This document shows positions 28,379-31,531 of a stretch of DNA of 64,000 nucleotides, piece after piece (within the stretch, counting starts at the first letter, position 1; each line of letters begins with the position of its first letter). The DNA is from Methanocalculus natronophilus (GTDB lineage Archaea; Halobacteriota; Methanomicrobia; Methanomicrobiales; Methanocorpusculaceae): NCBI RefSeq assembly GCF_038751955.1, contig NZ_JBCEXH010000001.1, positions 142,300-206,299 of the forward strand, read 5' to 3'. Both the position numbers and the translations under genes were made by a program. A model generated the notes under the pieces. The model had not been told where the DNA came from. It did no database searches and saw only the letters and a program-made list of their open reading frames with translations.

Positions 28379-28398
28379 TAATCGGATCGATCCGATTA
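28379..28398. promoter_or_regulatory. Perfect 20-bp palindrome, likely operator
   Basis: Half-site TAATCGGATC followed by its exact reverse complement. It overlaps the predicted transcription start and lies 16 bp before the DUF2193 ATG, with the ribosome site (GAGGTG) just after it. A palindrome of this length by chance at a promoter is very unlikely; a dimeric repressor or activator is the simplest reading. Confidence 0.7.
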
Positions 28399-28413: not shown

Positions 28414-29913
28414 ATGACAAAACTCTATCGAAAAATTATCGCTGAGGCGATGGCTGCCCAACGGGCAGATGTTGAGACCATTAAGCAGAAGCGGGGGACG
28501 CAGTTCACCCTGTCAGATGTTGAGCCCTATGTGGAGGCTGTGAAGAAGATGATGCCCATTGAAGGGCAGAGTGAAGCAGTCATTAATCTCCACAAGACAT
28601 CGGTTGTATCCCATTTCAACGCCTTAAATGGACTTACAAAGACTATACGCCCGGAAGACGACCCGTTTGTTGAGCATTACCAGACACCGGTTGTGCTTGA
28701 GATCCTCTCTGACGAGGACAAATCATTTGCCAAGAGCATGGATGCCTTTGTCAGCCGGATTGGCAAGTCTGAGGCGCTCATCGGGCGTGAATCTGCACGC
28801 CGCTATGCAGGATTCTACGGACCAACCTGTGTGGTCGACTTTGCGCTGATCCCGGGGAGCACAAGTGCCGTTGTGAACCAGATCCTGAAAAAGACAGATA
28901 TTCCTGAAGCTCACAAAAAAACAATACTGGCAGCAAAATCCTGGGGAATGAACACATCATATGGTGTCGGGGAAGTCTTTGCCACACAGATCGAGGAAGG
29001 CGACACCCTTGCTGATGCAAGCGCAAAAGAGGTGAAACAGATCCAGGAGATCTATAAGAATCCAGTGAAAGCCCAGGCTGAGCTGATGGATGGCGCCGGC
29101 CACACCTCATTTGATGTCAGGAAATACATGGACAAGTACCGGGAGCATATCACCCCTGCAGTGAAGGCAGCAATTGATGATGGCGTCCATTATGGGAATA
29201 TCGTCACAATCCCCGCATACTGTGTCGGAGATATTGCCCACCATATCGCACAGTCCACATTCAACATGTGCAAGGATGACGTGATCATGGCAACCATTGA
29301 CGCAGTCACCGGTGTGATGGAGAAGACGCTGGATGCCGGTGTCGATACCATGAAGAGCGAGTTCGATATCCTCTCGGTTGCAACCGGTGCATCAGCCTGT
29401 GCAACAGAATATATCCTGGAACTCGACGGATTCAACGCACCGATGATCGTTGATCTCCTCACCAAGCGCTTCCACAACCTCGTCCAGCTCAACCCGACCA
29501 GGGGTGCTGCTGCTGAACTGCATAACTGCGACTTCATGGATATGCTCTACCGGGGATGGAAGATCCTTGACCGGGCACGGAGAGGAACTGCCGGATCAGG
29601 CGAGAAGCTCGTCCCGAAAGTGGCTGGCTGTGAGATCGATCTCTCTCCGATACACGAGAACGAGGTGCTGATGAACCCGCAATGGTATGCATACCCCGCC
29701 TGTGCCATCACCGTGAGGGCATCAGCCCTGATGCGGCTCTCAGACTACCCGTGCCTGCTGACAAGTGAGCCGGTAACTGCCACGATGATGACCAATATCA
29801 TCGCCCTCAACAAGGAATGGGCAGCAGCCCCGGTTCGTGCCTGCAAGGATTGTGCAGCCGCATGCCTTGTTGACTTCAGGCACCAGTACTGTGAATACAA
29901 GGATGCAGTCTGA
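28414..29913 (+). CDS. DUF2193 family protein
   Basis: A 499-residue soluble protein that I place in DUF2193, a family known from methanogens and of unknown function. The start reads KLYRKIIAEAMAAQRADVETIK. Conserved-looking acidic and histidine residues (GAGHTSFDVRKYMDKY, VGDIAHHIAQSTFNMC) hint at a metal or cofactor site, and a C-terminal cysteine cluster CKDCAAACLVDF could bind a metal or Fe-S centre. The start has GAGGTG eight bases upstream. It is first in an operon with DUF2180 and an aquaporin. Confidence 0.85.
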   Translation: MTKLYRKIIAEAMAAQRADVETIKQKRGTQFTLSDVEPYVEAVKKMMPIEGQSEAVINLHKTSVVSHFNALNGLTKTIRPEDDPFVEHYQTPVVLEILSDEDKSFAKSMDAFVSRIGKSEALIGRESARRYAGFYGPTCVVDFALIPGSTSAVVNQILKKTDIPEAHKKTILAAKSWGMNTSYGVGEVFATQIEEGDTLADASAKEVKQIQEIYKNPVKAQAELMDGAGHTSFDVRKYMDKYREHITPAVKAAIDDGVHYGNIVTIPAYCVGDIAHHIAQSTFNMCKDDVIMATIDAVTGVMEKTLDAGVDTMKSEFDILSVATGASACATEYILELDGFNAPMIVDLLTKRFHNLVQLNPTRGAAAELHNCDFMDMLYRGWKILDRARRGTAGSGEKLVPKVAGCEIDLSPIHENEVLMNPQWYAYPACAITVRASALMRLSDYPCLLTSEPVTATMMTNIIALNKEWAAAPVRACKDCAAACLVDFRHQYCEYKDAV

Positions 29914-29928
29914 TCCGTGGTGAAGACC

Positions 29929-30135
29929 ATGAAATGCTATATCTGTGCAGAACAGGGAAAAGACACCGATGCTGTTGCAATCTGTATTGTATGCGGCATG
30001 GGTGTCTGTATGGACCATGCAATACGGGAAGAGATCGAGAAATGGGAGGGTGGATATCCCTTCCCGGCAAAGAAGCTCAAACTGAGCATCCCACGCATTC
30101 TCTGCCCTCCATGCTATAATGCAATGAAATCGTGA
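29929..30135 (+). CDS. DUF2180 small zinc-binding protein, 68 aa
   Basis: ATG 29929 with GGTGA five bases upstream (two in-frame GTGs earlier are less likely). The peptide has CYIC at residues 3-6, CIVCGMGVC around 19-27, MDH, and CPPC near the end, forming a B-box-like double zinc finger. It belongs to the DUF2180 family of archaeal small proteins. Situated 15 bp after DUF2193, and before the aquaporin; probably a regulatory or scaffold protein of this operon. Confidence 0.85.
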   Translation: MKCYICAEQGKDTDAVAICIVCGMGVCMDHAIREEIEKWEGGYPFPAKKLKLSIPRILCPPCYNAMKS

Positions 30136-30144
30136 GGTGCGGAG

Positions 30145-30882
30145 ATGTCTCTACTGAAAAAATGTGTTGCTGAGCTTATCGGAACATTTATGCTCGTCTT
30201 CTTTGGAGCAGGTGCAGCCGCAATAACCCTGATGCTTGCAAAAGGAGAACAACCCATGTCTGATTTTAGTATCGGTATTGGGTATCTCGGTGGACTTGGG
30301 GACTGGCTTGCCATCGGTCTTGCCTTTGGTCTTGTAATAGCCGCTTCCATTTACGCACTCGGAAGAATATCCGGCGCCCATATCAACCCGGCTGTAACGA
30401 TTGCACTCTGGGCAACAAAACGGTTCCCAACCAGAGAAGTGCCACCCTATATCATCGCCCAGCTCATCGGAGCAACTATGGCAAGTGTTCTCTTCTTTGC
30501 CTGCGCAGGTCCTGAATCGGTCACCACCGGCGGACTTGGTGCAACTGCCCCCTTCCCGGGTATCACCTATAGCCAGGCGATCCTGGTTGAGGCCATTGGA
30601 ACATTCCTCCTGATGCTTGTCATCATGGGGGTGGCAGTTGATAAACGGGCACCCGAGGGCTTTGCAGGGCTGACCATCGGTCTTACGGTAGCAGGTATCA
30701 TCACCACAATCGGAAACATTTCAGGTTCAGCAATCAATCCGGCCCGTACATTTGGCCCCTATGTCGGAAACACCCTTTTCGGCGGTGATAACCTCTGGGA
30801 GTTCTTCCCGATCTATGTCATTGGCCCGATAGCTGGTGCACTGGTTGCAGTATTCCTCTATGACTGGCTGAACTCTGAGTAA
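30145..30882 (+). CDS. MIP family aquaporin (AqpM-like)
   Basis: A 245-residue channel of six membrane helices with two half-helices carrying NPA motifs: HINPAVT (N81) and AINPARTFGP (N198). The arginine after the second NPA is the selectivity-filter Arg. Isoleucine precedes both Asn, as in archaeal AqpM, which conducts water and also small neutral solutes such as glycerol, CO2 or H2S poorly or well depending on the filter. The ribosome site lies in the 9-bp gap after DUF2180, so the three genes form one operon. Confidence 0.92.
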   Translation: MSLLKKCVAELIGTFMLVFFGAGAAAITLMLAKGEQPMSDFSIGIGYLGGLGDWLAIGLAFGLVIAASIYALGRISGAHINPAVTIALWATKRFPTREVPPYIIAQLIGATMASVLFFACAGPESVTTGGLGATAPFPGITYSQAILVEAIGTFLLMLVIMGVAVDKRAPEGFAGLTIGLTVAGIITTIGNISGSAINPARTFGPYVGNTLFGGDNLWEFFPIYVIGPIAGALVAVFLYDWLNSE

Positions 30883-30961: not shown

Positions 30962-31531
30962 ATGGCAACAGTAATCCTGATGAACGCAAGCCCCCGTGCA
31001 GGGGGGAATACCGAATGTCTGCTTGAAGAATGCAGAAAGGCAATCGAGGCAGAAGGTGTCGGAACAAAAATTATCAGCCTCCGGGGAAAGCAGATAGCAT
31101 CCTGCATTGCATGCTACTCCTGCAAAAAGACCGGGAAATGTGCACTTGATGATGGTGTGAACGAGATGATCGAGGAGATCCGCTCGGCCGATGGCCTGGT
31201 TCTTGCAAGCCCGGTCTATTTTGGAACGGCACGTGGAGATCTGATGGCTGCCATCCAGAGGATCGGTATGGTGTCGCGTGGGAATGACCAGTTCCTCTCA
31301 CGAATGGTCGGCGGACCAATTGCAGTAGCACGAAGAGGCGGGCACACGGCGACGATCCAGGAACTCCTGATGTTCTATCTTATCAATGACATGATCGTCT
31401 GCGGATCAACCTACTGGAACATGGCCTTTGGCAAAGAAGCCGGTGAAGTGCAGTCAGATACCGAAGGACTTGACACTATCCGGAGATTTGGAGAGAATGT
31501 CGGGTTCTGTGTACAAAAGCTAAAAAAATAA
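30962..31531 (+). CDS. Flavodoxin-fold NADPH-dependent FMN reductase / iron-sulfur flavoprotein-like
   Basis: A 189-residue FMN-binding protein: phosphate loop NASPRAGGNTE (residues 9-19), cysteine motif CIACYSCKKTGKC (46-58), and FMN ring loop SPVYFGTARGD. The cysteine spacing resembles that of iron-sulfur flavoproteins of methanogens (Isf), which pass electrons between ferredoxin and O2/peroxide, but also occurs in NADPH:FMN reductases without a cluster. Possible leaderless start; a TATA-like TTTTTACATAC lies about 35 bp upstream. Confidence 0.85.
   Translation: MATVILMNASPRAGGNTECLLEECRKAIEAEGVGTKIISLRGKQIASCIACYSCKKTGKCALDDGVNEMIEEIRSADGLVLASPVYFGTARGDLMAAIQRIGMVSRGNDQFLSRMVGGPIAVARRGGHTATIQELLMFYLINDMIVCGSTYWNMAFGKEAGEVQSDTEGLDTIRRFGENVGFCVQKLKK

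Follow-up and report, generated by a model that had tools for sequence, protein, structure and literature searches.

The archaeal aquaporin AqpM shares a conserved operon with DUF2193 and DUF2180 proteins: gene context and a possible link to one-carbon metabolism

A three-gene locus and its recurrence in two phyla

The window analysed here, a stretch of 64,000 nucleotides from Methanocalculus natronophilus (contig NZ_JBCEXH010000001.1, positions 142,300 to 206,299), carries three consecutive genes encoding a DUF2193 protein, a DUF2180 protein and a channel of the MIP family (Table 1). The genes lie where the initial annotation had placed them and are as tightly spaced as it stated; all three are on the forward strand. 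Only 15 bases separate DUF2193 from DUF2180 and 9 bases DUF2180 from the channel gene. A GTG 12 bases upstream of the called start is a possible alternative start of DUF2180. The curated Pfam cut-offs are 25 bits for PF09959 and 22.2 bits for PF09947. The arrangement duf2193–(duf2180)–aqpM is almost certainly the operon in which the archaeal aquaporin AqpM is natively encoded.

Table 1. Features of the operon and its surroundings in the window.
Feature	Position	Strand	Remarks
DUF2193 protein (PF09959)	28414..29913	+	499 amino acids; 887 bits, full-length profile match
DUF2180 protein (PF09947)	29929..30135	+	68 amino acids; 136 bits, full-length profile match
aqpM orthologue, MIP-family channel (PF00230)	30145..30882	+	245 amino acids; 172 bits
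C-terminal knuckle of DUF2193, CX2CX9(H/C)X2C (C477, C480, H490, C493)	29842..29892	+	third ligand position His or Cys, by lineage
Iron-sulfur-flavoprotein-like protein with FMN-reductase fold, CX2CX2CX5C	30962..31531	+	possible fourth gene
Perfect palindrome TAATCGGATCGATCCGATTA	28379..28398	.	20 bp, 5' of the first gene's ribosome-binding site; operator or 5'-leader hairpin

In the first sample, of 393 Halobacteriota genomes, 112 carried DUF2193 of the window type at full length, with 113 gene copies in all. For 109 of the 113, an AqpM-type channel gene lies directly downstream on the same strand, at a distance of 42–396 bp. Counted by genome, 109 have both genes, 3 have DUF2193 only, 17 have AqpM only and 264 have neither. 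The four unlinked DUF2193 genes lie at a contig edge (G322), close to one (G271), or in genomes with DUF2193 and no AqpM (G183 and Methanosarcina acetivorans, G384). A second phylum, reached via locus L054, was sampled with 150 genomes. DUF2193 occurs in 81 of these, and the channel gene adjoins it in 29 of the 30 loci examined. The recurrence of the gene order over two phyla is far beyond chance. DUF2180 is present at 104 loci, on the same strand every time, and is placed between DUF2193 and AqpM in most lineages; the operons of Methanosarcinaceae, of family f14 and of part of the second phylum do without it. Distances in the DUF2193 and AqpM trees correlate with r 0.60 (permutation maximum 0.15), as expected for genes travelling together. 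The initial annotation had grouped the three genes as a single functional unit and named a DUF2193 gene rarely found beside the channel in other genomes as evidence to the contrary. The two are clearly regular neighbours, in 109/113 and 29/30 cases, and their linkage across two phyla strongly supports the grouping.

A series of decaying loci indicates which parts of the operon hold together. DUF2193 is reduced to a C-terminal scrap in L198 and to an N-terminal scrap in L199, with DUF2180-AqpM intact in both, and it is lost or almost lost in L192, L195, L197, L200 and L201, which keep DUF2180-AqpM. Only fragments are left in L202, DUF2180 alone in L203 and a piece of aqpM in L204. DUF2180 and AqpM can thus persist without DUF2193, while DUF2193 of the window type is almost never retained without AqpM. 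DUF2193 genes carrying several stop codons were also seen in four genomes of the second phylum (G482, G423, G531 and G454), which suggests that the need for the gene was recently lost there.

A literature search, with subscription journals mostly outside its coverage, found no description of the operon; DUF2193 turned up in a single paper. What is new is the operon context: DUF2193 and DUF2180 are already listed as families, and AqpM itself is familiar.

The channel and its soluble partner

The window channel matches the AqpM structures of Archaeoglobus fulgidus (3NE2, E 1e-107) and Methanothermobacter marburgensis (2EVU, E 5.8e-106) over residues 1–245 and is 68% identical to the M. marburgensis protein; judged by its sequence, it is an AqpM orthologue. 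The initial annotation had proposed a channel for water or small neutral solutes. The MIP channel is there, and its identity as AqpM, for which structures and transport data exist, had gone unrecognised. The selectivity filter reads F-I-S-R, as in M. marburgensis AqpM. The pattern F-[IV]-[SAGT]-R is found in 137 of 138 aligned rows, the remaining row being truncated, and the NPA/NPA motifs in 126 of 138. This filter, F/I/(S,A,G)/R, is narrow and hydrophobic, and the glycerol permeability of M. marburgensis AqpM is low. With the crystallised proteins of M. marburgensis and A. fulgidus (PDB 2F2B/2EVU and 3NE2), the window channel shares the F/I/S/R filter and the NPA motifs, and no difference between the channels was found. 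A near-identical M. marburgensis-type AqpM and the AqpM of Archaeoglobi sit in the same operon as the window channel. The channel of second-phylum locus L159 is 99.2% identical to M. marburgensis AqpM, measured against a hand-entered reference sequence that agrees with the PDB row, and the crystallised AqpM therefore comes from this operon.

No archaeal aquaporin has been studied better than AqpM, for which crystal structures, transport data and simulations exist; nevertheless, a 2019 review gives its physiological role as "None identified" (PMC6912568). With the conserved operon, AqpM has a specific partner, and its role can be tested by deletion of either gene. A physiological hint comes from Methanocalculus sp. 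1H1Hc7, in which aqpM rises from 2.17 to 9.19 at 25 MPa (4.2-fold, P 0.009), together with Mcr, the V-type ATPase and a tungsten aldehyde ferredoxin oxidoreductase (AOR) (PMC12727201). The authors ascribe this response to the loss of dissolved CO2 and leave aqpM undiscussed.

The increase under pressure would also suit a water channel that serves as a turgor device during osmotic or pressure changes, with DUF2193 and DUF2180 as regulators or gating partners and no small-molecule substrate. M. marburgensis AqpM is described as conducting water moderately (PMC3287591), and the authors of a study on a Methanohalophilus strain from a Red Sea brine linked its AqpM homologue to salinity shifts (PMC6491703). 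A pure turgor role is nevertheless improbable. AqpZ has a filter better suited to water than AqpM does, DUF2193 is conserved in the manner of an enzyme (A1 mean column identity 78%), and its paralogue, described below, has no channel and sits with mtrH and mer.

DUF2193 itself is soluble. Its grand average of hydropathy is -0.10, its top 19-residue hydropathy is 1.3, and it has no transmembrane stretch. The location at the membrane suggested in the initial annotation thus holds for the channel only; taken as a whole, the initial interpretation is supported in part. The AlphaFold2 model is all-helical, with a mean predicted local distance difference test (pLDDT) score of 83.8 and a predicted template modelling score of 0.87. 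A Foldseek comparison with the PDB gave no relative (best E 0.09, template modelling score about 0.1–0.2), a profile search of PDB sequences gave no match, and Pfam scans of five further DUF2193 members found no other family. Homology to the known one-carbon enzymes MtrH, Mer and MtaA was found in none of Pfam, NCBIfam and the PDB, the only link to them being gene context. DUF2193 is enzyme-like and stands apart from all structures in the PDB.

Residues conserved in both DUF2193 subfamilies include H67, E87, Q90-T91-P92, D102, E126, R129, D142, K175, W177, Y183, D273, H276-H277, D288, E368, H370, D373 and D376, a set that looks like a metal or acid-base site. Of a metal-binding type among them are H67, E87, D102, E126, H276, H277, D288, E368, H370, D373 and D376. 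The cysteine-rich tail noticed in the initial annotation is present, with C477, C480, C484 and C493, plus H490. The third position of its knuckle, CX2CX9(H/C)X2C, is His in Methanocalculus and most relatives, whereas almost all paralogues, Methanosarcinaceae and family f14 have Cys there. Metal sites typically show this kind of exchange between His and Cys. The tail is flexible in the model (pLDDT below 50 at residues 473–478 and 490–499).

Mvol_0354 of Methanococcus voltae belongs to the same Pfam family and has a similar Cys tail. It is more abundant on pyrite (FeS2), and its authors call it uncharacterised and well conserved in methanogens and propose Fe-S handling; linkage to AqpM or MtrH is not mentioned in the passages found (PMC9431491). 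DUF2193 could accordingly be read as an iron-sulfur protein or an iron/sulfur acquisition protein carrying a labile cluster on its Cys tail, with AqpM passing H2S. The pyrite response and the conserved CX2CX6DX2(H/C)X2C tail of Mvol_0354 are in line with this (PMC9431491), but the idea is very improbable. H2S entry via AqpM is contradicted by published data, since AqpM reportedly does not transport H2S (Mathai et al. 2009, as cited in PMC3287591); the His/Cys exchange is typical of zinc; and no Fe/S-assembly genes recur near the operon.

Paralogues, one-carbon metabolism and oxygen stress

A divergent, channel-free DUF2193 occurs in Archaeoglobi (family f9, which includes the genome of Archaeoglobus sp. 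JdFR-37) and in families f30, f31, f36 and f37. Seven Archaeoglobi loci have an MtrH-family gene whose end is overlapped or directly met by the start of this paralogue (gaps of -17, -4 and +4), the mark of translationally coupled genes. The genes for MtrH, Mer and AOR lie upstream in this order on a single strand in L131, L136 and L139, and the paralogue closes the cluster. Mer, the F420-dependent methylene-tetrahydromethanopterin reductase, scores above the equivalog cut-off in the members scanned. Further upstream in L136 lie mtrC, mtrB and mtrA. The order in L137 is MtrH, an MtaA/CmuA-type methyltransferase, AOR, DUF2193 and Mer; this cluster also has a DUF2284 gene. The company of MtrH, Mer and AOR genes places the DUF2193 family, by gene context, in the metabolism of methyl-tetrahydromethanopterin (methyl-H4MPT) and connects it with the pathway at the centre of methanogen carbon metabolism. 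The paralogue is encoded alongside MtrH, but DUF2193 is homologous to no subunit of the Mtr complex, and the AqpM-linked form does not lie beside mtr genes.

Starting from the observed channel identity, linkage, solubility and gene context, we infer a substrate, a direction, a catalytic step and a role for DUF2180 as follows. AqpM would let a small, uncharged one-carbon solute cross the membrane, candidates being methanol, hydrated formaldehyde and CO2. DUF2193 would be a cytosolic metalloenzyme that passes this carbon to or from the H4MPT pool; the paralogue's place beside methyl-H4MPT enzymes and the metal-type residues shared by both forms suggest that the AqpM-linked protein handles a one-carbon unit. 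Because DUF2180 remains beside aqpM at loci where DUF2193 is being lost, it would serve as a small zinc or redox switch. A passive channel would thus be combined with an enzyme that traps or converts the solute, as in glpF–glpK, where the enzyme makes passive entry directional. The window likewise pairs a MIP channel with a dedicated soluble partner; unlike GlpK, DUF2193 is no kinase and has no known fold relative. This combination of solute channel, H4MPT-linked metalloenzyme and switch is put forward tentatively, as possible and short of probable. The stronger proposal, that DUF2193 founds a metalloenzyme family of new fold moving one-carbon units between the AqpM solute and H4MPT, with the paralogue performing the same chemistry with MtrH, is decidedly doubtful; if true, it would amount to an undescribed path by which one-carbon units enter or leave the metabolism of hydrogenotrophic methanogens and Archaeoglobi. 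The earlier suggestion that the genes let a small molecule in and process it agrees with these data, and the paralogue's MtrH, Mtr, Mer and AOR neighbours narrow it toward one-carbon chemistry.

Several observations weigh against the one-carbon proposal. The one-carbon setting is that of the paralogue, and no AqpM-linked DUF2193 adjoins MtrH; L128 is the sole locus with an AqpM-linked DUF2193 and MtrH, which lies 3.2 kb away, beside a paralogue. No sequence or fold match of DUF2193 indicates a catalytic type. AqpM is kept without a full-length DUF2193 in 17 genomes, and the pressure experiment alters much beyond CO2. In favour of the proposal are the rise of aqpM at 25 MPa, for which CO2 limitation was inferred, and the distribution of Mer. 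If DUF2193 serves the methyl branch of the H4MPT pathway, it would be expected only where Mer is present. Mer is above cut-off in all 30 DUF2193-positive genomes and also in 32 of 50 DUF2193-negative ones (Fisher p 6e-5, or 5e-4 after removal of four genomes which we take to be haloarchaea), and this nesting is confounded by shared ancestry, which inflates the values. Three f9 genomes without Mer also have no DUF2193. Family f10 has AqpM in seven genomes, DUF2193 in none and Mer in 0/10; it may be ANME-1-like, given its lack of Mer. Against the proposal, finally, the context of DUF2180 paralogues points to oxygen-stress defence.

The double zinc finger ascribed to DUF2180 is borne out by eight ligands (C3, C6, C19, C22, C27, H30, C59 and C62). 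Its AlphaFold2 model has a pLDDT of 93.3, and a fold search returned only a weak likeness to ribosomal protein eS26 (E 0.25). No mention of DUF2180 was found in the literature searched. A role as a redox switch is plausible for such a Cys-rich zinc finger. Away from AqpM, a tandem DUF2180 pair occurs in Methanosarcina and in families f30 and f36. Such pairs were seen in oxygen-stress clusters at L210, L211, L213, L214, L216 and L217. Downstream of the M. acetivorans pair (L210) come genes for an AhpD-like protein, a superoxide reductase (PF01880, 109 bits), an FMN_red flavoprotein, the archaeoflavoprotein AfpA (299 bits, cut-off 192), a member of the rubrerythrin family and a flavodiiron protein. 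The L217 pair is accompanied by rubrerythrin (303 bits, cut-off 200) and by AfpA- and flavodiiron-like genes recognised by eye. An AhpD-like protein, ferritin and McrC precede it in L213. In L213, L214 and L216, the pair also lies between McrC and 2-oxoacid oxidoreductase-like genes. In M. acetivorans, it is divergent from mer, about 1 kb off; in G163, other genes intervene.

These clusters are the strongest evidence for the main rival to the one-carbon proposal, a defence against oxygen or peroxide stress. DUF2180 would sense redox state, AqpM would pass H2O2 or water, and DUF2193 would repair or replace a damaged component of the H4MPT pathway or handle the oxidant, assisted in Methanocalculus by the Isf-like flavoprotein. 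The CX2CX2CX5C FMN_red flavoprotein encoded after aqpM in Methanocalculus and the PNPOx-type flavoproteins that adjoin DUF2193 in L207 and AqpM in L187 are consistent with such a defence, as are the superoxide reductase, rubrerythrin, flavodiiron and AhpD-like genes beside the paralogues. It is rather unlikely all the same. The stress setting belongs to the DUF2180 paralogues and not to the AqpM-linked copy, several lineages have operons without DUF2180, and the neighbours of the DUF2193 paralogue are one-carbon genes. Compared across lineages, the AqpM operon has no recurrent oxygen-stress neighbour, and no superoxide reductase, rubrerythrin or flavodiiron gene was found within an AqpM-linked operon cluster. 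Because of the DUF2180 paralogues in oxygen-stress clusters, however, the one-carbon proposal is rated no higher than tentative. A role in stress sensing, as first suggested for the window genes, gains indirect support from these clusters, from the response of aqpM at 25 MPa (PMC12727201) and from the abundance of a DUF2193 protein on pyrite in M. voltae (PMC9431491).

Neighbouring genes and the leader

Arsenic-type genes (ACR3, ArsM, ArsR, ArsC-like and PF03773 permeases) were noticed near AqpM or DUF2193 at L079, L022, L009, L011–L013, L035, L122, L025, L208 and L186. AqpM might accordingly pass As(OH)3 or methylated arsenicals, which DUF2193 would demethylate, bind or sense. ArsM (347 bits, cut-off 263) adjoins the operon in L079 and L022, and an ArsR-type gene adjoins DUF2193 in L208. 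ACR3 is at most a few kb from the operon in Methanolinea, whose protein scores 386 bits (cut-off 282.8), and in one Methanosarcinaceae genus. Permeases of the PF03773 type lie within 6 kb in 4 of 80 genomes and 3 of 36 genera, where about 0.35 genera are expected (p ~0.005, an optimistic value since the neighbour class was picked after being seen). A precedent exists in AqpS, encoded in an ars operon (PMC6205960). As in these operons of Sinorhizobium meliloti, a MIP channel stands beside ArsM, ACR3 or permease genes in a few genera here, but in most genomes, among them Methanocalculus, no ars genes belong to the DUF2193-AqpM core unit. Such a neighbour is missing from 76 of the 80 genomes, ACR3 is mostly distant from the operon, and the AqpM filter is narrower than that of the arsenite-conducting GlpF. 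No ars genes lie beside the window operon, and the window genome has no ACR3 match. The association is beyond chance, confined to a few genera and a lead only. As a general explanation it was discarded on account of this narrow enrichment, and metalloid handling is quite improbable as the function of the operon.

The flavoprotein gene downstream of aqpM lies 36–80 bases 3' of it in four of the five Methanocalculus genomes showing both genes and 692 bases away in L002. This order was seen only in Methanocalculus, within which the gene is part of the operon neighbourhood. Given the 79-base gap in the window, it may have its own promoter. In a family with AqpM and without DUF2193 (L187, L188, L190 and L191), a gene recognised by eye as HbpS/GlcG-like lies shortly before aqpM, and in L187 the PNPOx-type flavoprotein gene lies between the two. 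An MFS transporter as a conserved upstream gene is limited to Methanocorpusculum; L054 and L115 were considered as further cases and rejected, as no such gene lies directly upstream in L054 and that of L115 is on the opposite strand. No plasmid copies of the operon were found.

Upstream of the operon, a dyad similar to the window palindrome, ATCGGGC-N4-GCCCGAT, lies at the same place in L004, L005 and L006. A related dyad with changed spacing occurs in other Methanocalculus species, a pattern more in keeping with an RNA leader hairpin than with a fixed operator. The leader has no Rfam match. The pattern of hairpin plus ribosome-binding site has a single exact match in the window genome, so no regulon was found. 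As a general regulator of the operon the hairpin was set aside: the mean z is only -0.6 over 178 leaders, with strong hairpins in the Methanothermobacter type and some others. In the Methanothermobacter-type leaders (L156–L162), the strong hairpin lies at the same place as in the window.

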